From assembly GCA_003577145.1 (NCBI GenBank), contig QEUP01000019.1, positions 1 to 62,067 of the forward strand: a stretch of DNA of 62,067 bases, read 5' to 3'. Below the pieces are notes generated by a model. It was not told the DNA's origin. It saw nothing but the letters and a program-made list of their open reading frames with translations, and did no database searches. The translations under genes and the position numbers were made by a program. Positions within the stretch are counted from its first letter, which is position 1. Every line of letters starts with the position of its first letter. This document shows positions 5,279 through 45,525 of this stretch, piece after piece. Origin of the DNA: Acidobacteriota bacterium. GTDB lineage: Bacteria > Actinomycetota > Acidimicrobiia > Acidimicrobiales > Microtrichaceae.

Positions 5279-5626
5279 GCCCCGATCCCCGATGTGACCG
5301 GCCGGTTACGGGTCGACTCGGTACTGCAATGGTTTGGGGCTCGACGCCGCCGTAGAGGTCGCGACAGAGTGGTGCCGAGGTGTCGCCCCGGGGTCCGGCC
5401 GAACGCGGGCGGACAGGACAACCGGCCCCGAGGCGACTCCCCAGCAACAGATCGGACGGTGGGAGGGTCCGTTCCGGATAACGCCCCGCAACGGTGGTAC
5501 CGACCGATCTGGGGATATGTTGCGGTTACGTTACGACATTTACGGACCGGTCACAAGGACCCCGTGAGCGCCTCGGCGCCTGAGGGCGGGTTGGCTGTGC
5601 CGTCGGCCCGAGGTGTCCCGCAGCGA
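5279..5626. other. Intergenic region between convergent recR and thiolase genes
   Basis: No coding sequence with a recognisable product is visible in this 348-bp gap. An imperfect inverted repeat (gtcgccccgggg near 5391 against ccccgaggcgac near 5430) could form a hairpin, but no T-run follows it, so a terminator is not supported. The segment 5517-5545 is locally AT-richer. I see nothing else I can name. Confidence 0.4.
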
Positions 5627-6805
5627 TCAGACCCTCAAGAGGATGGCATCGCCCTGGCCGCCGCCACCGCAGAGAGCTGCCGCCCCGAGACCGCCGCCCC
5701 GGCGCTGGAGCTCGAGCAGCAGGTGCAGCGCCAGGCGGTTGCCCGACATGCCTACGGGGTGGCCGAGCGCGATGGCGCCACCGTTTATGTTGACGATGTC
5801 GTCTTCGACGCCGAGGTCGTCCATCGAGGCCAGGCCGACCGCGGCGAAAGCCTCGTTGAGCTCGAAGAGGTCGATGTCGCTCACCGAGCTGCCGACGCGG
5901 TCGAGAGCCTGCTTGATGGCCCGTGACGGCTGGGTGAGAAGCGACGCGTCGGGACCGGCCACCTGGCCGTAGCCGACGATCTCGCCGAGCGGCTCGCTGC
6001 CGAGCTGCTCGGCCTTCTCCTTGCTGGCGACCACCATCGCGGAGCCGGCGTCTGAGATCTGCGACGCGTTGCCGGCGGTGATGTTGCCGTCCTTGGCGAA
6101 GGCGGGTCGGAGCTTGGCGAGCGACTCGGCGGTCGTGTCGGCCCGGACGCCTTCATCAGTGTCGACGATGACAGGATCGCCCTTCCGCTGGGGAACCTCG
6201 ACGGGCACTATCTCTTCGTCGAACAAGCCGTCCTTCTGGGCGGTGGCAGCCCGCTCGTGTGACTGAGCCGCCAGCGCGTCCTGAGCTTCGCGGCTGATGC
6301 CGGCCTGGGCCGCGTAGTTCTCGGTGCCCTCACCCATGGCACAGTGGTCGAACACGCACGTGAGCCCGTCGTACATCATCGAGTCGATGAGCTCGCCGTC
6401 GCCGAGACGGTAGCCCGCCCTGGCACCGGGCAGCAGGTAGGGGGCCTGGGTCATCGACTCCATGCCGCCGGCGACCACCAGATCCGCTTCGCCGTCCTGG
6501 ATCATCTTGTCGGCGAGATAGATCGAGTTGAGGCCCGACAGGCAGACCTTGTTGACGGTGGTGGCGGGAACGGTCATGGGGATTCCGGCGTTGACCGCCG
6601 CCTGGCGGGCGGTGATCTGTCCCGAGCCGGCGAGGATCACCTGCCCCATGAACACGTAGTCGACATCGTCGGGCTGGACACCGGCGCGTTCGAGCGCAGC
6701 CTTGATGGCGAAGCCCCCGAGCTCGGTGGCCGGAAAGGAGGCCAGAGCCCCCGAGAGCCTGCCGATGGGCGTCCGAGCGCCGCTGAGAATGACCGATCCA
6801 GCCAT
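5627..6805 (-). CDS. Acetyl-CoA C-acetyltransferase (thiolase)
   Basis: This 392-residue thiolase condenses two acetyl-CoA to acetoacetyl-CoA or cleaves 3-ketoacyl-CoA. The acyl-accepting cysteine is Cys88 in VNKVCLSGLNS. The second catalytic motif is NEAFA, and GGAIALGHPVGMSGNR supplies the active-site His. The C-terminal CGGGGQGDA carries the proton-shuttling Cys. All catalytic residues are present and the length is normal. With the nearby crotonyl-CoA carboxylase/reductases it fits the first step of the ethylmalonyl-CoA pathway (C2 to C4), although a beta-oxidation role cannot be excluded. It is transcribed opposite to recR and stands alone. Confidence 0.93.
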   Translation of the reverse strand: MAGSVILSGARTPIGRLSGALASFPATELGGFAIKAALERAGVQPDDVDYVFMGQVILAGSGQITARQAAVNAGIPMTVPATTVNKVCLSGLNSIYLADKMIQDGEADLVVAGGMESMTQAPYLLPGARAGYRLGDGELIDSMMYDGLTCVFDHCAMGEGTENYAAQAGISREAQDALAAQSHERAATAQKDGLFDEEIVPVEVPQRKGDPVIVDTDEGVRADTTAESLAKLRPAFAKDGNITAGNASQISDAGSAMVVASKEKAEQLGSEPLGEIVGYGQVAGPDASLLTQPSRAIKQALDRVGSSVSDIDLFELNEAFAAVGLASMDDLGVEDDIVNINGGAIALGHPVGMSGNRLALHLLLELQRRGGGLGAAALCGGGGQGDAILLRV

Positions 6806-6899: not shown

Positions 6900-8072
6900 T
6901 CAGCTCTGGTCGGACCCGGGCCGCGACGCCTCGGCACCTTGTTGCTGTGCGCGGCCCACCGCGTTCTGGACAGCCTTGCCCACGGCCTGTTTCACGAGCT
7001 GGGCCAACGGATCGTCATCGGAGCGCTGGGCTTCGATGTCGTCCTCGACGATCCTGGGTCGGGGTGTGGGACCGGCCGCCCCCGGGGGTGAAGCGGGCTG
7101 GTCCACTGTCCCCGGGGGTGAAGCGGGCTGGGCCACTGTCCCCGGGGGTGAAGCGGGCTGGTCCGCAACGACGACCGAGCCCTCCTCGAGGTTGATCTCG
7201 ACCTCGAGCCGGGGTTGGGAGCGGAGGCGGGACAACACCGCCTCGAGCTCGGCGACGGTCGCGGCCAGGCGCTCGAAGGTCGTCCGCTCGGCCTCGGCCG
7301 CCGAATCGAGGCGGCTCCGGGCGTAACCCAGGAGCTCGTTCTTGCGTGCCTGTGCGTGTGCCTCGGCCTGCTCGGTCGTCTCGCGCGCCTTGGCCTCGGC
7401 GGCGGCCAGCACCGAGGACGCCTGCTGTTGGGCCTCGTCCCTCACCGCGGCCGCCCTCGCCTTGGTCTCGGCCATCAGAGCCTCGGAGCGCTCCTCGGCG
7501 TCGACCACCCTGCGGGCGGCTGCGTCGAGCTTCTCGTCGGCCGCCCGTCGGGTCTCCACGGCGTAGGCAGCTGCCTCGGAGCGGAGACGCTCGGCTTCGG
7601 CACCGGCCTGGGCCTGGAGCTCCTCGCATTCCCGGGTGGTGACCGCCCGGAGGTTGGCGGCGTCCTTCTCGGCCCGCTGCCGCAGGGCGCCGGCGGTCTG
7701 CTCCGCCTCGGACCGCAGCTTCTCGACCGACTCGTGGGCAGTGCGCAGGACCGAAGCCACCTCGCTGCCCAGCCGTTCGAAATCGTCACCGGTGATCGGC
7801 AGACCCTGGGCGGACACCTGCGCGGGCACCGGCTGGGCGGGTGCCTGCCCGGGTGCCTGCGGTCGGGGGGTGGCCCGGCCCGCCCCGGCGGGGCCCGGTG
7901 CCTGCTGCTGGGGTCGCCGTTCCGGCAGCGGTGGCTGCGGCCCGGAGGAGGCATGGAGGTTGTGCACCTCTCGGGCTACGAAGCCGAGGAACGTGTCCAC
8001 TTCGTCGGTGTCGTAGCCGCGCCTGGTGATCGTGAACTTGCGGCTCGTGATGTCCTCCGGTGACAGCGCCAT
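6900..8072 (-). CDS. DivIVA-domain coiled-coil protein
   Basis: The 390-residue protein starts with a DivIVA-type membrane-binding domain (PEDITSRKFTITRRGYDTDEVDTFLGFVAREV, residues 5-37). A Pro/Gln/Ala-rich linker follows to about residue 85. A long alanine- and glutamate-rich coiled coil extends over about residues 95-290, and the tail carries three QPASPPGT-type repeats. DivIVA proteins recognise curved membrane and scaffold polar growth or septation machinery. The gene is not in a division cluster, so this may be a paralogue of Wag31 rather than Wag31 itself. It is divergent from the first ccr gene, with about 146 bp between the starts. Confidence 0.85.
   Translation of the reverse strand: MALSPEDITSRKFTITRRGYDTDEVDTFLGFVAREVHNLHASSGPQPPLPERRPQQQAPGPAGAGRATPRPQAPGQAPAQPVPAQVSAQGLPITGDDFERLGSEVASVLRTAHESVEKLRSEAEQTAGALRQRAEKDAANLRAVTTRECEELQAQAGAEAERLRSEAAAYAVETRRAADEKLDAAARRVVDAEERSEALMAETKARAAAVRDEAQQQASSVLAAAEAKARETTEQAEAHAQARKNELLGYARSRLDSAAEAERTTFERLAATVAELEAVLSRLRSQPRLEVEINLEEGSVVVADQPASPPGTVAQPASPPGTVDQPASPPGAAGPTPRPRIVEDDIEAQRSDDDPLAQLVKQAVGKAVQNAVGRAQQQGAEASRPGSDQS
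7081..7164. repeat. Tandem 30-bp repeat, 2.8 copies, inside the DivIVA-domain gene
   Basis: Units begin at 7081, 7111 and 7141 and are nearly identical, differing at about one base; the third is cut at 24 bp. Each in-frame unit encodes ten residues (QPASPPGTV[A/D] type) in the C-terminal tail. A period divisible by three allows copy-number change without a frameshift. Confidence 0.95.
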
Positions 8073-13854: not shown

Positions 13855-14019
13855 GTCACTGGGTGTCTGGTTCGTCGGATTCGACCCCGGTCCAATTCCC
13901 GCAGGCGCCATCAGGGTCACCTGTCAGGCAGGCGCCCGCCAACCGGGCACGATCTGTGCCCCGAGGTTGTGCCCTTCTCGACCCGTATCCGCCGGATCCC
14001 TTGTTGTGACAGGCTGCTC

Positions 14020-14061
14020 GCATGCAGGTCCACCTCGTCGACGGCACCTACGAGCTGTTCC
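14020..14061. repeat. attL: 42-bp direct repeat at left end of integrated element
   Basis: This segment is identical over 42 bp to 21122-21163. It contains the start codon and first 13 codons of the exonuclease gene whose intact copy begins at 21124. The repeat is the expected product of site-specific integration by the tyrosine recombinase encoded between the two copies. Confidence 0.92.
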
Positions 14062-14066
14062 CGTAG
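14022..14066 (+). pseudogene. Displaced 5' remnant of the exonuclease gene
   Basis: The frame starts with the same 13 codons as the exonuclease gene at 21124 (MQVHLVDGTYELF), then reads Pro and TAG just inside the element. It is what remains of the original host gene start, still attached to the ancestral upstream region, after the element inserted. It would produce only a 14-residue peptide. Confidence 0.85.
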
Positions 14067-14169
14067 GCGCTTGCCAGTACTGGGTCCCTGAAAGTACCTG
14101 CCGTCCAGCGGCGCCAGGGGTCGTGGACCGACGCCGGGAGGCGCTCGGAGGCGCCGTTCCTGGCCGTTC

Positions 14170-14189
14170 TGTGTCAGCAAGTTGTGTCA
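14170..14189. promoter_or_regulatory. Paired TGTGTCA repeats near attL, candidate integrase/Xis arm sites
   Basis: TGTGTCA occurs at 14170-14176 and 14183-14189, 13 bp apart, about 110 bp inside the attL core. The same motif pair occurs near the right end at 21055-21075. Paired direct repeats flanking the core are typical of arm-type sites bound by tyrosine integrases. Confidence 0.5.
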
Positions 14190-14212
14190 GGCGTGGTGCT
14201 GTCGGGCCGCCG

Positions 14213-15379
14213 TCACCGGTTGCCCTTGGAGCGGTTGTGCGGGACGCAGAGCATCTCGCAGTTCTCCAAGTCGGTCTTGCCGCCCTTGGACCACGCCGTC
14301 ACGTGGTCGGCTTCCATCTCGTTGAGCTTGTAGATGCGGGACTTGTTGGCGTTGTCGCCGGCCGCACAGAGCGGGCAGTTCGAGACGCCCTTGCTCTCGG
14401 CCGCCTTCGTCTGTCGGGTGTAGGCGGCCTGCTTGGTCTTGTCGTCGAAGAGACGGACCGCCAGCAGCTCGGGCTTGGACTTGCTGCTGAGCAGGAACTC
14501 GTACACACCCTTGCGGCTGGTCACCGCCGGGTCACCGAGCAGCTGCACGAGGTCGGCTTCCAGTTGAGCGGGGTTGTACGCCGTCTCGTGGTACTCCTCG
14601 TAGAGCCGGCCCCATTCCAGGCCCCGCATCTCCTTCTGTGGCGAACCCGTGAACACGCTGTCGACCCAGTCGATGACCGAGGTGAAGTAGGTCCGCAGCT
14701 CGCTGATGTTGTCGTCGGTGCGGTGCTGCGCCAGGTAGGCGTCAACGGTCTTGCCCTGCGCCGCCGCCACCCAGCCGAGCGCAACCGCCAGCACCTCCTG
14801 GCGCTTCGGGTCGCCCTTCACGTAGGCCGCCCACTTCTGCATGTTGGCGTTGTTCGAGTTCGAGTACTCGGCCTTCGCCTTGGTGACGAACGGGCCGGAG
14901 TAGATGGCGTTCAGCAGCTCCTGGGAGTTGAGCGGGACACCGGCGATGTTGATGGTCCGGAACCAGTCCTTGATTTCGGTCTCGGTGCCTTCGCACTCGT
15001 ACACCAGGAGCTCGCTGGCAAGCAGGCCGTCCTGGACGTCCTTCGGCAACGACGAGAACGTCTGCTCCTTACCGTCGACCTTGATGGCGAACTTGCCGGT
15101 CACGAACCGGCCGACGCTCGTGATGCGCTGCTGGCCGTCGAGCACTTCCAGGGTCTCGCCGTTCACGTTGAAGTAGATGAGCCCCAACGGGTAGCCCTTC
15201 AAGAGCGAGTCGATGACGGCGACGTCCTTCTTGCCATCGTTGTAGATGTAGTGGCGCTGGAACTCCGGTTGGATGACCAGCTTGCCGGCGAGCCCGAACA
15301 GCCCCTTGCCTTCGAGCTCGTTGTACACGAAGCCTTCGAGCACCTCGCCGACCGTGTACTTCTTCAGGTCGGTCTTCAC
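14213..15379 (-). CDS. DUF262 domain protein with C-terminal HNH nuclease
   Basis: This 388-residue protein has an N-terminal DUF262 (ParB/sulfiredoxin-like) domain with [15 protein letters not shown] at about residue 38 and the invariant DGQQR at residues 81-85. A helical middle follows. The C-terminus is an HNH nuclease: CPLC at about residue 327, [14 protein letters not shown] and [13 protein letters not shown]262 proteins, including GmrSD-type restriction enzymes, use this fold for nucleotide-dependent DNA cleavage in phage defence. The gene overlaps the adenine methyltransferase gene by 4 bp, so the pair probably forms a restriction-modification-like unit (inference). It is the last gene before attL. 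Confidence 0.88.
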
Positions 15380-16647
15380 GAGGGGTTCTTCCTTCGAATG
15401 ATGATGCGCTTGTAGGCGGTCGAGTAGTGCGGCTCGGTCAGACCCAGCCGCCGGTGACCCGGGCTGTTTCCCCCCGTGCCGCCGCCCTCGTAGTACTTCT
15501 TCACGAATGCCTCGCCGAGGACCTTCACTCCGATGTCTCGCATCGCTTCCATGTCGTCGCCATGGGCGATGATTTCGAACTGCTCCGGGTTGTACTTGTC
15601 CAAGAAGGTGATGGGGACGCCCATCGGCCCGTCGAAGTCGTTCGGGATAGCGTCAACCCACGGGACCTCGATGGCCTCCTGGAAGTTGTAGTAGCGCTGG
15701 TAGCCGACACCCTGCACGTTCTTGTGCTTGCTGAACTTGATGTTGTCGGCCATCGACATCAGTTGCAGGGCCTCGTGGCGTCGGCCGTGGTCGATGTTCG
15801 TGAACCAGCATGAGTTGCCAAGTCGGGTGTAGTCGAAGTCGTCGTCGGACGGGTAGCCGAGCTTCTCGGCTTTCAGGCGGTCGGCCTCGCTGACAGGAGC
15901 CCCTTTGGGCACCCCGAAGACCATGTCGGTGTTGTTGCCCGTGGCGCCCTTCCACAGCCTGTTGTCCTTGATGAGGGGGAACGTCTCAACGTAGGTGACA
16001 GCGTTGCTATTTCCGATGATGGAGAACTTCACCCCGCCCTCGACGAGCCAGGCAATGAACTCGCGGAAGAGGCTGAACGGCGGATTGGTGATGACGACGT
16101 CGGCCTCGTCCCGGAGAGCTGTGACCTCCGCACTGCGGAAATCACCGTCGCCATCCAGGTAGTGCCACCGAAGGTCGTCGATGTTGACGACACCGTCGCC
16201 GTTGACGTCCTTGCGTTCAAGCACGAACACCTTGCCGTTGGCACGGGTCCGTGTCTCGTCGAACTGCGAAGCCTCGGTCTCGAACAACGTTGGCTGGTAG
16301 TCGATGGTGTCGGGCTTGCTGTCGGCGGCGTAGGAGGTCGAGATGAGCTTCTTGATGCCGTAGTCCATGAAATGGAGTGCGAAGAACTTGGCGAAGTTGC
16401 TCCACTCTGGGTCGTCGCACGGCAGGAGCAGCACCTTGTCCCGGAACACGTCCTTGTCGTACTCCAAGTAGGCGTTCATCTCACGTTCGATGTCCGCCCA
16501 CTGGGTGTAGAACTCGTCGTTCTTCGCCGACTTGGCTGCGACCAGGTTGGAGTTCTTCCCAGCCGACCGTGCAGCGCTGGGGCTTCCAGTGGCGGAAGTG
16601 TCTCCGTCTCCCCGGCCGGTGGTGGTCGCTTCACCTTGTTTCACCAT
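15376..16647 (-). CDS. EcoRI-family adenine-specific DNA methyltransferase
   Basis: This 423-residue protein matches the EcoRI-methylase family. Residues 38-100 hold the start typical of the family ([24 protein letters not shown]), and the amino-methyltransferase motif IV is NPPF at 188-191 followed by [10 protein letters not shown]. Downstream blocks include [36 protein letters not shown] and the C-terminal YKRIIIR. It should methylate adenine N6. An EF-hand/dockerin-like loop [12 protein letters not shown] occurs at residues 147-158, ahead of a second acidic DGDGDF. The N-terminal 30 residues are Gly/Ser/Thr-rich. It is translationally coupled to the DUF262-HNH gene. Confidence 0.9.
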
Positions 16648-16719
16648 CTGCTCCCTGCCTCCCTCACCCCGACATCATCGCAGGCTTCGCATTGTCTTTC
16701 GGACCCACTCCCCCTGGCG

Positions 16720-17772
16720 TCAGGCGAGACCGGCAAGCCCGTGACGGCGGCGCACGGCTTCGATGGTGACCCACGGGACTCGCAGCCGGCGCAGCCGCTG
16801 GCTGCCGTCGAGGCTCAGCGACAGTCCGGTGCCTGGCGGGCCATCAGGTAGTGGCGGGACCCGGTGGGTGCCGAACAGCATCCGGGCACCGTCAGGGCTG
16901 AGCGGACCAAGGGCGACCCGGGCGGAGAACTGGTCCCGGACCGCCCCTGGCACGGCTTCGGTGTCTGGTCGGGTGAACGCCGCCACCAGGTGGATGCCGC
17001 ACGCCCGACCCTGGCGGGCCAGCACGCCGACCGCCTCACGAACCCGCTGCGCCTCCGGCTTCGCCAACGCCACGCCGCCGAGCAGGTCGGCGGACTCGTC
17101 CAAGACCACCAGGGTCGGCCGCACCGGCACCACCCGTTCCGGCAGGTCGAGCCAGTGGTCGCAGCCGTCGAGACGGAGCTGTTCCTTGCGGCGGTCGAGG
17201 TCCTCGACCAGCTCGGTGAGCGCAGCAGCTGCACCGGGGAGGCCATGCACCTCGATGTCGTAGCGGGCCTGGGCGAAGTCCACCTCCTTCGGGTCGATGA
17301 CCACGACCCGCCAACACCAGCCCAGCGGCAGCGCCGCCACCACCGTGCGCAACAGCGACGACTTGCCCGACCCTGTCGCACCGGCGACGAGCAGATGCGG
17401 CGCCCGCCGAAGGTCCCACACGGCGCAACCGTTGGGGTGCTCCCCGAGCGGAACGGTCAGCCTCTCGTCACAGCGCCGTAGTGGCGGTGAGGCGGTGGTG
17501 GACCAGTCCGACGCATCGAGGACGAGCGCCCAACGACCGCCCGAGGCGGGATGCAGCTCCCACCACGGGACACGAGCAGCAAGGGCGACCCGTTCGGCGG
17601 CTCGCTCGACGTCGGCACTCGACCAGCCGGGCGGAGAGCGAAACGAGTACCGCACCGTCGGCCAGCATCCATCCACCGCCGGCCACGGCGCAGCGAACCC
17701 GGCCCGCCGCCAGGCGAGCGACCAACGGAGTCGCTCAGCGGCTGCCAGCACTGGCGGCCTTGGGAGCGCCAT
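16720..17772 (-). CDS. FtsK/SpoIIIE-type DNA translocase (AICE transfer protein)
   Basis: The 350-residue protein has a RecA-like FtsK domain with Walker A GATGSGKSSL at residues 131-140, Walker B LVVLDESADLLGG and a sensor region RQGRACGIHLVAAFTRPD. It lacks the four-helix membrane anchor of chromosomal FtsK. This fits the single-protein DNA pumps (TraSA/TraB) that move double-stranded DNA between mycelial cells in AICEs. Its start overlaps the end of the upstream accessory gene by 38 bp, unless a later start is used. Context with Rep and Int makes a transfer role likely. Confidence 0.88.
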   Translation of the reverse strand: MALPRPPVLAAAERLRWSLAWRRAGFAAPWPAVDGCWPTVRYSFRSPPGWSSADVERAAERVALAARVPWWELHPASGGRWALVLDASDWSTTASPPLRRCDERLTVPLGEHPNGCAVWDLRRAPHLLVAGATGSGKSSLLRTVVAALPLGWCWRVVVIDPKEVDFAQARYDIEVHGLPGAAAALTELVEDLDRRKEQLRLDGCDHWLDLPERVVPVRPTLVVLDESADLLGGVALAKPEAQRVREAVGVLARQGRACGIHLVAAFTRPDTEAVPGAVRDQFSARVALGPLSPDGARMLFGTHRVPPLPDGPPGTGLSLSLDGSQRLRRLRVPWVTIEAVRRRHGLAGLA

Positions 17773-18073
17773 CGACGTGCACCGCTTCGGCGGTCAGCGA
17801 CACGCCGGAGCGACCGTTGTCGAGGGTCCAGTGCCAGGCCACCAGACCGGTGAACCGGAGCGGAGCGAGGTCACCGAGCGGCGGCACCGGCGACGGGACC
17901 CGGACGTTCACGGACTCGGGCCGGCCACCTTCGGCCAGCACGAGGACCGGCACGTTCGTCAGGGCCTGCCCCGCCCGGTTCAGCCGGGGCGAACCGTCGG
18001 GGTTGGTCGCCGGAGCCGGCTGGCCGGCTGCGAGGATGCGGAGCTTGGTCGTGTCAACAGGGATGCGCTTCAT
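17735..18073 (-). CDS. Small AICE-associated protein (SCO3933-like)
   Basis: From the ATG at 18073 the product is about 112 residues. It starts MKRIPVDTTKLRILAAGQPAP and continues NRAGQALTNVPVLVLAEG, then VNVRVPSPVPPL. This pattern resembles the small conserved proteins found between rep and tra in Streptomyces AICEs (for example SCO3933). They have been called regulatory or plasmid-replication associated, but their function is not established. An upstream in-frame start at 18103 is possible but less family-like. Confidence 0.65.
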   Translation of the reverse strand: MKRIPVDTTKLRILAAGQPAPATNPDGSPRLNRAGQALTNVPVLVLAEGGRPESVNVRVPSPVPPLGDLAPLRFTGLVAWHWTLDNGRSGVSLTAEAVHVDGAPKAASAGSR

Positions 18074-18161
18074 GCCCAGGACAGTGCGGGCGTGTTCGCT
18101 CAACGCAAGTAGGTCACTTGCGGGACGCTCGTGGTGTGACGAACTTCTTCACGGAATCAAG

Positions 18162-18203
18162 GCGGGACGGCCTTCGGCCGTCCCGCTGGCGCCCTCCGGG
18201 CGC
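18162..18203. other. Two adjacent GC-rich hairpins between rep and the accessory gene, possible replication origin
   Basis: A perfect 11-bp stem (gcgggacggcc/ggccgtcccgc with a TTC loop, 18162-18186) is followed 2 bp later by a second stem (gcgccc/gggcgc, 18189-18203). They sit in the 284-bp space between rep and the next gene. HUH initiators nick at hairpin-containing double-strand origins, so this is a candidate origin. A weak terminator for rep is the alternative, but no T-run follows. Confidence 0.4.
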
Positions 18204-18357
18204 AACAACCACCCGGAACCCGCACCCGAGGAAGCTCAGAGCCGACGGTGGCACGTCAGGTGGAGCCGGGCCGCCACGCCGGGGCGCCACACCCGGCATC
18301 GGGGCACGACGAAGCAGACCTGCACCGCAGGTCTGCACCCTTCGGGGTCGGTGGTCG

Positions 18358-19401
18358 CTACGGGGACCGGTTCGGGAGCGGGCCCGTCCACGTCAACGAG
18401 GCGGGCAGCACCTCGAAGGCCACGGCCGTCCACTGCGTCGGACCGACAGCGTCAAGGACCCATGCCCGTCGGGCGGCTCGCAAGGCCGTGAAGGTCGTCC
18501 CCCACCGCCGAGAGGCAGCGAGCACATGGCCACGGAAGCCCCAGCCCCGGCGGGCGGCACGGTGCCGGCGACAGCTCGACCACCCCGGGTCGGTCAACCG
18601 GCCCGGCTCATCCCGGCACCAATACGGCCAGGGGTCCGAGCATCCGCACGAGGCGGCCCCCGCTCGACGCATCGACCGGGTGTGACGAGACCCGCCGGGC
18701 AGGTCGTCGCCAGCCGCCTTGATGGCGTAGCGGACCAGCTTGCGCATGTAGGCGCCCACCCGGCCGGCGTCGGTCACCGCCTGGGCATCGCACTGCGGAC
18801 CGAACCCGAAGCCCCCCGAGGTCACCGCAGCGATGCGTCGGCCCGTCCTCGGGTTCACGCCACCTCGGACGGCGACCCCCAGGACATCGGCTGACACAGC
18901 ACCCCGCACCAGGGCATGCACATGGGTCAACCCCCGGCGCTGGAACTCCACGACCCGCACGAAGTCGAGCGGCTCGCCCGTCATCCGCCGCAGCTTCTGC
19001 ATCAGCACGGTGAACCGCCGGCTGAGCGTGGCGTTGAAGCGCCCGGCTGCGACGTAGTCGTAGGTGTCGGGGTCCACCGGAGTGCCGAGCCGGGCGTCAT
19101 CGGGCCGGTGGTACCGGCCGCAGGCGCACCGGCGACGGCCACGCTTCGGAGGGCCGCTGTGCACCGCCCCGAACACGTCGGCGCCCGGAGCGGTCAGCGT
19201 CAGCCAGGTGAAGGCTTCGCCGCCGACGATGCCCGAGTTGATGACCCCACGAGCGTCACCGGCGTACAGCTCAGAGCAGCTCTCGCACTTCGACGCCAGA
19301 CGGGTGCCGCAGCGGCGCAGCACTTCACGCTGACGGACCTCGCCGGTGGCCCCGTGGACCTCGGTCGTTCGGATGCGGACAGGGTGCGAGCAGTCGGACA
19401 C
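18358..19401 (-). CDS. RepSA-like rolling-circle replication initiator (HUH family)
   Basis: This 347-residue protein has the cysteine-rich start of AICE Rep proteins (CGTRLASKCESCSELYAGD, residues 31-49), which probably binds zinc. The HUH metal-binding motif is LTHVHALVRG at residues 158-167, and candidate nicking tyrosines are Tyr218 and Tyr225 in GAYMRKLVRYAIK. It would nick the element's origin and allow transient autonomous replication after excision. The C-terminus is rich in Arg and Trp. It lies 45 bp downstream of int in the same direction, so xis-int-rep are probably one transcript. Confidence 0.85.
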   Translation of the reverse strand: MSDCSHPVRIRTTEVHGATGEVRQREVLRRCGTRLASKCESCSELYAGDARGVINSGIVGGEAFTWLTLTAPGADVFGAVHSGPPKRGRRRCACGRYHRPDDARLGTPVDPDTYDYVAAGRFNATLSRRFTVLMQKLRRMTGEPLDFVRVVEFQRRGLTHVHALVRGAVSADVLGVAVRGGVNPRTGRRIAAVTSGGFGFGPQCDAQAVTDAGRVGAYMRKLVRYAIKAAGDDLPGGSRHTRSMRRAGAASCGCSDPWPYWCRDEPGRLTDPGWSSCRRHRAARRGWGFRGHVLAASRRWGTTFTALRAARRAWVLDAVGPTQWTAVAFEVLPASLTWTGPLPNRSP

Positions 19402-19446
19402 CCGCCGAACGGTCCGGCCGGGTGCCTCGACGTCATGGAGGTGTCG

Positions 19447-20703
19447 TCACAGGTCGGCGAGCACAGCCCGGTTCCGGTCCTCGGCATCCGAGGCCGGCCG
19501 CACGTAGCGAGCCTGGGTGAAGGCGACCGACGCATGGCCAAGCAGCCGGGACACGTCGACCCACTCGAACTCTGCCACCTCGTGCAGCCAGGTGGCGGCG
19601 TGGTGGCGGAGATTGCGCCAAGGGATGACCGGACGACCCTTCTGGGTCTTTCCCTTCGGCGACACCGAGTCCGGGTGACAGGCCCACCCGGCCTTCCGGG
19701 CAGCGGACCCGAACACCCGACGCAACTCGCCCTCGGTGAAGGGTCGGTTCGGACCCTTCGGTCCGGGGTAGAGGAGCCCAGCTTCACCCTCGTCGGCCTC
19801 GACCGCCTTCGCCCGTTCCAGCACGGCGACGAACACGCTCCGGGGGAGCAGGACGAAGCGACGACGACCGTTCTTGGGTGCCTTGAGTTCGTATCCCTTG
19901 GACTTCGAGTACGACCAGGCAGTGGCGACCATCACGCCGTGCCGGTCCTCGTCCACATCCACGGCCCGCAGGGCCGTCAGCTCACCCAGGCGAAGCCCTC
20001 CGTATCCGGCGACTCGGACCATCTGGCCGAGCCACGGGCGACGGCCCCGCCTACCCCGGGCGTCGAAGGCCTCTGCCAACGCCTCGACCATCTCTGTGGT
20101 CGGACGTTCCGACGGGGGGATGTATACCGCAGCTTCGTCATCGGCCGCCCGGGCGGCCACGTAGTCGACGTCGTCCATCGGCTGCATCGTCCGAGGCAGC
20201 AGTCCGGACCTGTGGGCCACGGTCACCATCAGCCGCAGCAGCGACCCGATGTTCTGGACCGTCGCCGGTCTTCGCCCGGCGGCTCTCGCTGCGGCGAGCA
20301 CGGCGATGCAGTGCTGGTCGGTGGACCCCCACTCGTGCACGGCCATGGCGCCGACCACCGGCTGAATCCAGGTGCCGTAGATGCCCCGACGCTTCTCGAT
20401 GTAGCGGGCCGTCACGTTCTTCTGCTTCCACCGCTGTTCCACAGCGGCGAACAGGTCATCGACCGTGGGCGGTCCACCCCGGGTGACCTTGACCGGGCCG
20501 ACCTTCGCCCGGGCGGCCTTCACGTAGGCCACCGTCGCCTCGAATGCCTCGTCGGCCAACTCCCGGGTGGCGTAGCGGCGATTCGACCGCTGACCGGAGA
20601 ACGGGTCGGTCCACACGACCCGGTGCGACTTCACCTTTGTGGTCGGTGCGTAGAGGGCCACGCCGCAGTCATGCCTGGCCACGGGACGAGCTCGGCCGGC
20701 CAT
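19447..20703 (-). CDS. int: Tyrosine site-specific integrase
   Basis: This 418-residue protein has an N-terminal arm-binding region with VDDLFAAVEQRW, a core-binding SAM-like domain, and a catalytic domain. Catalytic residues seen are Arg238 (GYGGLRLGEL), a Lys region near 275, Arg366 in WRNLRHHAATWL, His390 in LLGHAS and Tyr400 in QARYVRP. The usual first His of HxLR is Arg363 here, a substitution that some integrases tolerate. It should recombine the 42-bp attachment site. The ATG overlaps the stop of xis (ATGA), the classic AICE arrangement. Confidence 0.93.
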   Translation of the reverse strand: MAGRARPVARHDCGVALYAPTTKVKSHRVVWTDPFSGQRSNRRYATRELADEAFEATVAYVKAARAKVGPVKVTRGGPPTVDDLFAAVEQRWKQKNVTARYIEKRRGIYGTWIQPVVGAMAVHEWGSTDQHCIAVLAAARAAGRRPATVQNIGSLLRLMVTVAHRSGLLPRTMQPMDDVDYVAARAADDEAAVYIPPSERPTTEMVEALAEAFDARGRRGRRPWLGQMVRVAGYGGLRLGELTALRAVDVDEDRHGVMVATAWSYSKSKGYELKAPKNGRRRFVLLPRSVFVAVLERAKAVEADEGEAGLLYPGPKGPNRPFTEGELRRVFGSAARKAGWACHPDSVSPKGKTQKGRPVIPWRNLRHHAATWLHEVAEFEWVDVSRLLGHASVAFTQARYVRPASDAEDRNRAVLADL

Positions 20704-21008
20704 CAGGCTGCCCGCCTCGTGGCCGGCCGGCCCGCCGGGCGGGCCGGCGGGGGTGACAGCACGGCGACGCTGTCGGTCCGCTGTGCCGGGTCGGCGGCAG
20801 TGCCGGCCAGCGAGGTCGTCACCTCCCAGGCCCGCAGAGCGGAGAGCGGGATGCGAACCATCCCGGGCACGACGGAGGCAGGGAGCACGCCGGAGCGGAC
20901 CAACTCCTTCGCCTTCGTGGTGCCGATGGAGTAGCGCTCGGCGAGCGCCTCAGTGTCGAGGAAGACGTCCTCAGCGGTGGGGGTGACGCAGTCGTGTTCG
21001 TTGGCCAT
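20703..21008 (-). CDS. xis: Excisionase/helix-turn-helix DNA-binding protein
   Basis: From ATG 21008 the product is 101 residues. The central winged-HTH reads VFLDTEALAERYSIGTTKAKELVRSGVLPASVVPGMVRIPLSALRAWE, which is the MerR-like fold of AICE excisionases. The tail is Pro/Ala/Arg-rich. The frame is open to 21149, but that would run through attR, so the internal start is preferred. It is translationally coupled to int and lies beside attR. A TTGACA box on the minus strand (21071-21076) could serve as its -35 element. Confidence 0.82.
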   Translation of the reverse strand: MANEHDCVTPTAEDVFLDTEALAERYSIGTTKAKELVRSGVLPASVVPGMVRIPLSALRAWEVTTSLAGTAADPAQRTDSVAVLSPPPARPAGRPATRRAA

Positions 21009-21054
21009 GTAACCGACGGTGCGGGCGTCCCTTCTGGCGCCAATCACCGCCATC

Positions 21055-21075
21055 TGTGTCACGCTGACTGTGTCA
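21055..21075. promoter_or_regulatory. Paired TGTGTCA repeats near attR, candidate integrase/Xis arm sites
   Basis: TGTGTCA occurs at 21055-21061 and 21069-21075, 14 bp apart, and 47 bp inside the attR core. The outer context tctgtgtca is shared with the pair near attL. The sites overlap the presumed xis promoter, which could couple integrase binding to xis-int expression. Confidence 0.5.
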
Positions 21076-21121
21076 ATAACGCCGTCAGCAGCCGGAAAAC
21101 CGCTCAAATCCAGGGGAAACA

Positions 21122-21163
21122 GCATGCAGGTCCACCTCGTCGACGGCACCTACGAGCTGTTCC
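21122..21163. repeat. attR: 42-bp direct repeat at right end of integrated element
   Basis: This copy is identical to 14020-14061. It starts two bases before the ATG of the exonuclease gene and covers its first 13 codons, so the gene remains intact on this side. The AGGGGA ribosome site at 21112-21117 lies inside the element. Confidence 0.92.
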
Positions 21164-22005
21164 GGCAGTTCTACGCACCCGGGGGTGGCCACCTGAACTC
21201 CGAGGGTGTGGAGGTCGACGCCACCCGCCGGGTCCTCCGCTCGATCCTCACCCTCGTCGAGGACGGCGCCACCCATGTAGGGGTTGCCACCGACCACGTG
21301 ATCGAGTCCTTCCGCAACGACCTCTACCCCGGCTACAAGACCGGTGAGGGTGTCGACCCGCAGCTCAAAGGGCAGTTCACCTTGCTCGAGGACGTGCTGC
21401 GGGCGGCGGGCTTCACGGTCTGGGACATGGTTGAGTACGAGGCCGACGATGCCTTGGCGGCCGCTGCTGCTGTGGCGGTCGCCGATCCGCTGGTCGATCG
21501 AGTGGTGATCTGCACCCCCGACAAGGATCTCGGCCAGTGCCTGGTCGACCCGAAGGTCGTGCAGTACGACCGCCGGGCCGGCGAGTACCGCGACGCTGCC
21601 GGAGTTGTCGCCAAGTTCGGCGTCGAGCCCGGGTCGATCCCCGACTACCTGGGCCTGGTGGGTGACAACGCCGACGGACTGCCGGGGCTGCCGGGGTGGG
21701 GAGCCAAGTCCGCCTCGGCAGTGCTGTACCGCTACGGACACATCGAGGACATCCCCTTGGACTCCGCCGAATGGGACATCCCGGTCCGCAACGCGGCCAA
21801 GCTGGCCAGGGTTCTGGCCGATCAAATCCGGGAGGCCGTTCTCTACCGGCGGTTGGCGACGCTCGAGACCGACGTCGACGTGGGAACCGTCGAGGAGTGG
21901 CGCTGGGAGGGACCGACTCCAGCACTGGGCGAGTGCTGCGACTACATCGACGCGCCGGATGCTGCAAGAAAGGCGGAGAGGCTGGCCGCCCCGCTCGAGG
22001 ATTGA
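21124..22005 (+). CDS. 5'-3' exonuclease (Pol I N-domain/FEN-type), interrupted upstream by the element
   Basis: The 293-residue protein matches stand-alone 5' nucleases. Metal-binding acidic motifs are MVEYEADDALA, TPDKDLGQCL and LVGDNADGLPGLPGWGAKSAS, the last combined with the H3TH DNA-binding motif. It would remove flaps and RNA primers. The element's 42-bp att site spans its first codons, so the present promoter and ribosome site come from the element. The ancestral upstream region lies 7.1 kb away at 13.9-14.0 kb. The start at 21124 is fixed by the family N-terminus MQVHLVDGTYELFRQFYAP; upstream in-frame sequence is element DNA. Confidence 0.92.
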   Translation: MQVHLVDGTYELFRQFYAPGGGHLNSEGVEVDATRRVLRSILTLVEDGATHVGVATDHVIESFRNDLYPGYKTGEGVDPQLKGQFTLLEDVLRAAGFTVWDMVEYEADDALAAAAAVAVADPLVDRVVICTPDKDLGQCLVDPKVVQYDRRAGEYRDAAGVVAKFGVEPGSIPDYLGLVGDNADGLPGLPGWGAKSASAVLYRYGHIEDIPLDSAEWDIPVRNAAKLARVLADQIREAVLYRRLATLETDVDVGTVEEWRWEGPTPALGECCDYIDAPDAARKAERLAAPLED

Positions 22006-45451: not shown

Positions 45452-45525
45452 TGGAGCGGGTGACGGGAATCGAACCCGCACCGTCAGCTTGGGAAGCTGA
45501 AGTTCTACCATTGAACTACACCCGC
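45452..45525 (-). tRNA. tRNA-Gly (anticodon CCC)
   Basis: The minus strand folds as a complete cloverleaf. The acceptor GCGGGTG pairs with CACCCGC, the D-arm is GTTCAATGGTAGAAC, and the anticodon loop is CTTCCCAAG with anticodon CCC. The T-arm reads GCGGGTTCGATTCCCGT, and the 3' CCA is encoded at 45452-45454. CCC reads GGG glycine codons. Confidence 0.97.

Follow-up and report, generated by a model that had tools for sequence, protein, structure and literature searches.

A seven-gene element at the start of an exonuclease gene

The stretch of DNA analyzed here (the window, the 62,067 nucleotides of contig QEUP01000019.1, assembly GCA_003577145.1) contains a 7.1-kb element that resembles an actinomycete integrative and conjugative element (AICE) and is located at the 5' coding end of a gene for a 5'-3' exonuclease; the order to which it belongs is most likely Acidimicrobiales. 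The element corresponds to the distance spanned by two copies of a perfect 42-bp direct repeat (Table 1). This repeat had already been noticed at the exonuclease gene start when the window was read without any database search (the sequence-only reading), and it was confirmed: an 80-base piece of the site was compared with the own genome (68 contigs, 4.05 Mb), and only these two places, but no third copy, were found (E up to 0.001). The right copy is the opening of the intact exonuclease gene, as had been claimed with the view that the duplicated start keeps the gene whole. The left copy is translated to M Q V H L V D G T Y E L F P, and a TAG follows directly. Other exact repeats of at least 25 bases in the window were, among the matches listed, at 7080-7160, 8435/9912 and 51483/51534.

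Between the repeat copies there are seven genes, all on the minus strand. Starting from the right end, the backbone genes have the order xis, int, rep, the SCO3933-like gene and ftsK, and, thus, int adjoins the attachment (att) site and is not located between rep and tra. All four genes that had been predicted earlier, xis, int, rep and ftsK, were found, but a type II restriction-modification pair, the genes of which are adjacent and have reading frames overlapping by 4 bases, had been overlooked. The gene set of Int, Rep and Tra and the direct-repeat ends support the earlier assignment as an AICE-like element. Compared with NCBIfam models, the FtsK protein reached 31.9 bits with plasmid_TraB (under the cut-off of 800) and Rep reached 96.3 bits with the RepSA equivalog (under the cut-off of 700). 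With respect to the AICE spread genes (spd), only the SCO3933-like protein turned up, below its cut-off, and no dedicated spd or clt/TRS test was made. The GC content was 0.61-0.65 in the three 1-kb bins from position 14000, which contain the cargo, and 0.70-0.73 in the next four, which contain the backbone. Two GC-rich inverted repeats at 18140-18205, between rep and the SCO3933-like gene, are a possible replication origin or terminator. The single tRNA of the window is at position 45452, and the integration site is the 5' end of the exonuclease gene and not a tRNA 3' end.

Table 1. Features of the element and of its integration site, in window positions.
Feature	Position	Strand	Evidence
Native upstream region of the exonuclease gene, now separated from the gene	13990..14021	+	ends with CTTGTTGTGACAGGCTGCTCGC before ATG; resembles the upstream regions of relatives
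Left 42-bp repeat copy (left att junction)	14020..14061	+	repeat search, own-genome search
14-codon remnant frame of the native gene start, TAG right after the core	14022..14066	+	sequence; stop matches G045 and G119
21-bp minimal core TCGACGGCACCTACGAGCTGT	14038..14058	+	alignment: common to left and right copies of three elements
Paired TGTGTCA sites, left end (putative Int arm sites)	14170..14189	+	end alignment, pair-pattern count
Type II restriction enzyme, GmrSD_N (DUF262) + HNH	14213..15379	-	Pfam; PADLOC REase_II 320.9 bits
EcoRI-type adenine DNA methyltransferase	15376..16647	-	PF13651 371.1 bits; PADLOC MTase_II 265 bits
FtsK/SpoIIIE-type DNA translocase (Tra-like)	16720..17772	-	PF01580 60.6 bits, cut-off 24
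SCO3933-family-like small protein	17735..18103	-	NCBIfam 52.1 bits, under cut-off 80
RepSA-type replication initiator (rolling-circle, HVH motif)	18358..19401	-	PF20199 167.3 bits, cut-off 34
Tyrosine integrase	19447..20703	-	PF00589 31.0 bits, cut-off 27.1; motif alignment
Xis-like HTH_17 protein	20703..21008	-	27.4 bits, cut-off 27
Right arm, divergent region upstream of xis and exonuclease; source of leader, AGGGGA and start codon	21009..21123	.	sequence, end alignment
Paired TGTGTCA sites, right end (putative Int/Xis arm sites)	21055..21075	+	end alignment, pair-pattern count
Right 42-bp repeat copy (right att junction), including the present start codon of the gene	21122..21163	+	repeat search, own-genome search
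5'-3' exonuclease (FEN-like), target gene	21124..22005	+	PF02739, PF01367

The native and the present start of the exonuclease gene

To compare the two junctions with uninterrupted genes, the 30 nucleotides before the ATG of four relatives were aligned with both flanks. The identity to the left flank of the window was 0.90 (G032), 0.87 (G020), 0.57 (G028) and 0.70 (G009), while the identity to the right flank was 0.33 (G032, G020), 0.33 (G028) and 0.23 (G009). The upstream regions of the relatives thus resemble the left and not the right flank, showing that the left flank is the original one and that the element has provided the sequence from which the gene is started today. Judged by this alignment, the present leader and the start codon of the exonuclease gene are supplied by the element. 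A motif similar to CTTGTTGTGACAGGCTGCTCGC is found upstream of the gene in several relatives. The native motif CAGGCT is located 6 bases before the ATG, and we take it to resemble the actinobacterial -10 box of a leaderless gene.

The target gene is conserved. A strong exonuclease homologue (E 1e-60 or better) was present in 53 of the 61 genomes searched, and the remaining eight had only weaker matches of the DNA polymerase I kind. The core of the repeat codes for DGTYEL, and this motif aligns with residue 18 of Taq polymerase, presumably a catalytic metal ligand. A host could hardly lose a site that encodes such a motif, and this would account for the use of the site in several families. In the core there is also a 7-base spacer with a weak inverted repeat around it, in which 8 of 10 positions are paired.

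The integration site in related genomes

Uninterrupted sites are present in relatives, so that the empty attB, the absence of which the sequence-only reading had named as a point that would speak against an element, was found. Thirty exonuclease loci (including that of the window itself, L033) were inspected with flanks of about 1.5 kb, and each locus had one site copy, save one with none at the threshold used. Of 12 further loci, L116 gave no alignment row and L113 starts inside the gene.

Occupied sites were found as well, as decayed relatives at the same position, which is the outcome of the search in related genomes that had been proposed earlier. A search for Xis in 397 genomes of the order (E up to 1e-9) yielded three positives from different families, the window genome, G045 and G119. 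Without exception, xis is located beside the exonuclease start in them. G045 has an element of about 7.2 kb between two site copies, with an FtsK that is 74-79% identical to that of the window and with different cargo, which includes a PIN-domain protein and a type III-like methylase/ResIII pair. In G119, the genome of which is a single contig, a remnant of 1.3 kb comprises Xis (64%), the beginning of Int (62%) and two small cargo frames, for which no Pfam family match was obtained. The search for second site copies went down to about E 4e-9, with mostly two candidates scored per genome, and weaker second copies may have been missed. Two further second copies were rejected as elements: in G397 the contigs have near-identical ends and the copy is a second copy of the gene start, and in G110 there are two different exonuclease genes.

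The two copies are identical in the window element, in contrast to G119 and G045. In G119 the left copy encodes MGLDVHLIDGTYELFR, followed by a stop, and MDVHLVDGTYELFR is encoded by the right copy, with which the gene begins. The uninterrupted gene of G181, a congener of G119, starts with ATGGGTTTCGACGTCCACCTCATC, i.e., with the type of the left copy of G119. The left and right copies of G045 likewise encode different N-termini. From these differences it follows that the start codon and the first codons come with the element, and, as far as can be read from the copies, strand exchange must occur inside or beside the 21-bp core TCGACGGCACCTACGAGCTGT.

The left and right ends of the three elements can be aligned, and all of them have a stop codon directly behind the left core. 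In addition, TGTGTC(A) sites are located at about 151-157 and 164-170 bases from the left end and at about 109-111 and 95-98 bases from the right end in the three elements, with the second left site of G045 being degenerate. The strict pair pattern occurs twice in the window, once per element end, and one match in total was found in 20 mononucleotide shuffles of the window. The count covered the window, L084, L085, L033-L062 and L086-L118. In L033-L062 and L086-L118 (362 kb) there were five matches, in L033, L103, L104 and L105, all of which are other cuts of the same three elements. The TGTGTCA pairs look like integrase arm sites. Between G045 and G119 the right arm shows 92% identity over 86 noncoding bases, compared with 69.9% for the exonuclease genes beyond codon 20. 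As the hosts belong to different families, this fits horizontal spread.

These results also bear on the question whether the repeat arose from a duplicated gene start, without site-specific recombination. The left copy is indeed a true piece of a gene start, as such a duplication would leave it, but the conserved ends, the paired sites and the presence of Xis at the site in 3/3 genomes contradict it, as does the fact that the copies of G119 and G045 are not alike in the codons preceding the core, which is predicted for attP x attB recombination and not for a duplication. A duplication is thus extremely improbable, and the element boundaries, which had earlier been set against a chance gene duplication, hold.

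Right-end leaders without an element

The right arm of G119 was compared with 283 genomes, and matches were found in eight. The match directly adjoins the gene in G119, G045, G109 and G238, and the other four (G124, G058, G142, G163) are short. In G109 (L127:15401-15469) and G238 (L118, G238:C25:55141-55185) the right-end leader is thus located before the exonuclease gene, and neither an element gene nor a left copy was found in the stretches read. Going by these matches, both leaders are probably scars of lost elements. It would also fit the lack of a left copy and of element genes if the leader were native to these hosts and had been acquired by the element, so that no scars existed, and the G109 leader contains GTGACAGGCT, which is present in native leaders, too. 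However, the match to the G119 right arm extends over 70 bases in G109 and 45 bases in G238, and six family members of G109 (L128-L133) as well as six of G238 (L107, L109-L112, L115; a seventh, G258, gave no row) have other leaders. A native origin is therefore regarded as unlikely. A partial site 10.3 kb upstream in G238 was rejected, because it is inside another long reading frame.

Relatives of the integrase and the replication initiator

A relative of the integrase with 78% identity (residues 124-418) is encoded on a short contig (L102:1-885). Within the order, integrases with 30-36% identity were found in ten other genomes (E up to 1e-25), and no tRNA was present in ten such integrase loci with flanks, from seven of the ten genomes. 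A comparison with 396 genomes of the phylum gave matches in G000 and G034 alone at E up to 1e-30, there was no match in phages and no relative in viral contigs, plasmids gave one match with 30% identity, and solved structures gave none at E up to 1. Rep was 28-31% identical to plasmid-borne relatives (8 of 20, among the matches listed).

An Iamia genome (G236), from the same order as the window genome, has an integrase about 33% identical to that of the window, in three copies with near-equal scores (L097, L098, L099), one of them on a plasmid. Iamia is a genus of the Acidimicrobiales, and the window therefore most likely comes from this order. Two other integrase matches, both in genome G000, those of L100 (G000:C35) and L101 (G000:C42), are located near tRNA-Met 5554-5629 and tRNA-Arg 7935-8010, respectively, and the C42 match of L101 has a TAG inside.

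Interpretation and proposed mechanism

Taken together, we interpret the locus as a compact AICE-like integrative element, the tyrosine integrase of which targets a conserved 5'-3' exonuclease gene at its first codons, and we assign a probability of roughly 0.9 to this reading. The observed support consists of the repeats, the gene content, the empty sites of relatives, the decayed sisters at the site, the differing N-termini in two hosts and the shared ends. Excision, transfer, the function of the arm sites and effects on expression are what we infer from it.

Several results weigh against this interpretation. A complete sister element was not found among the relatives, and that of the window is the only complete one. 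In G045 the FtsK match is split over two frames, Xis is matched in part only (59%) and with an internal TGA, and both Int and Rep are missing; in G119 Int is reduced to its first 64 residues. The short contig L102 yielded no exonuclease site, no RepSA and no FtsK. Integrase and site are thus tied together by no more than three genomes, and in two of these the element is damaged. The right arm of the window itself was below the threshold in the search with the G119 arm, being too diverged. A consensus scan revealed no sigma-70-like promoter at either junction. Ribosome-binding strength was rejected as a marker of element leaders, because the pairing energies with the anti-Shine-Dalgarno sequence, -6.5 to -7.4 kcal/mol for element-type leaders and -1.5 to -10.3 for the others, are not cleanly separated (69 leader rows, with some genomes represented twice and loci with less than 45 bases upstream dropped). 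The catalytic box of the integrase has RxxR, which could mean an altered activity, in view of the HxxR in 8/8 more distant relatives compared. Lastly, excision and mobility are deduced, and the empty sites are those of relatives and not of the same species.

Some of these points would also be in accord with an old, fixed genomic island, in which the repeat is an old scar and Int is inactive, namely the decay of the sister copies in G045 and G119 and the unusual RxxR box, and the retention of only right-end sequence in G109 and G238 can be added to them. However, the window element has long, open frames for all seven genes, and its 42-bp copies are identical. Furthermore, RxxR is kept in L102 at 78% identity, and thus it looks like a conserved trait and not like fresh decay. 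A fixed island is therefore possible, but not probable.

For the AICE-like element the following course of events is proposed. The integrase would recombine the element site with the first codons of the exonuclease gene, in or beside the 21-bp DGTYEL core. After integration the native promoter would drive only a 14-codon stub, which is ended by the stop brought by the element, and the gene would be started from the leader, the ribosome-binding site and the N-terminal codons at the right end of the element. As is known for these protein families, Xis and Int would excise the element, by which the native gene would be restored, the circle would be copied by RepSA in the rolling-circle mode, and FtsK would move the element as double-stranded DNA. 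The restriction-modification pair is cargo and would defend or stabilize the element.

Comparison with known elements

According to a survey from 2011, AICEs are defined by Int, Rep (RepSA, RepAM or Prim-Pol) and an FtsK/SpoIIIE-type Tra, AICEs with a tyrosine integrase are mostly located at tRNA 3' ends, the pSLS subfamily excepted, and the Acidimicrobidae were devoid of AICEs (PMC3218068). By this definition, the window element is similar to pSAM2 and other RepSA-type AICEs in having Xis, a tyrosine integrase near one end, a RepSA-type Rep, one FtsK/SpoIIIE Tra and direct-repeat ends (PMC3218068). In contrast to them, it is located at the 5' coding end of a nuclease gene, and its host is most likely a member of the Acidimicrobiales.

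The sequence-only reading had called the target unusual for AICEs. This is true insofar as it is not a tRNA 3' end, but AICEs in protein-coding genes had already been reported: 14 of the 51 elements of one Streptomyces population are in protein-coding genes, e.g., rlmN (PMC9513070), and some AICEs with serine recombinases use non-tRNA targets (PMC9513070, PMC3218068). The window element shares the non-tRNA target with them, but the exonuclease gene is not named as a target in the accessible parts of these two sources. Targeting of 5' ends was not new, either. A replaced N-terminus after such targeting is described for other elements (PMC8409611), and SXT integrates into the 5' end of prfC (PMC2791158). 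The likeness to the elements of the dusA/prfC type is that the right junction provides the start codon and a non-native N-terminus (G119, G045), which is a likeness of working and not a family membership. The dusA-specific elements (IMEVchUSA3) differ in that they occur in Vibrio and related bacteria, are IncC-mobilized and have another target gene.

The SXT/R391 elements are large integrative and conjugative elements with type IV secretion. Their tyrosine integrase and their insertion into the 5' end of a conserved gene (PMC2791158) are shared by the window element, but target and hosts are different. In the open-licence literature, no report of the exonuclease gene as a target of an AICE or integrase was found by title or abstract start, and the same was true for a report of this target for an AICE in Acidimicrobiia. 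What is new is thus this target together with this host order; 5'-end targeting and AICEs in protein-coding genes were already known.

Significance

The element extends the RepSA/FtsK-type elements to a host group, most likely the Acidimicrobiales, that had been found to be devoid of them in the 2011 survey, and the 5' end of a DNA-repair nuclease gene joins the list of integration targets. The swapped start would be a natural test of mobile elements rewiring repair genes. It is conceivable, although rather doubtful, that a host repair nuclease is switched by the element family: the native start, which may be leaderless, would be exchanged for a leader under control of the element, and decay could leave this leader behind, so that a core gene would be permanently rewired, with G109 and G238 as the scars. 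If this were true, the level or the timing of the exonuclease would follow the state of the element.

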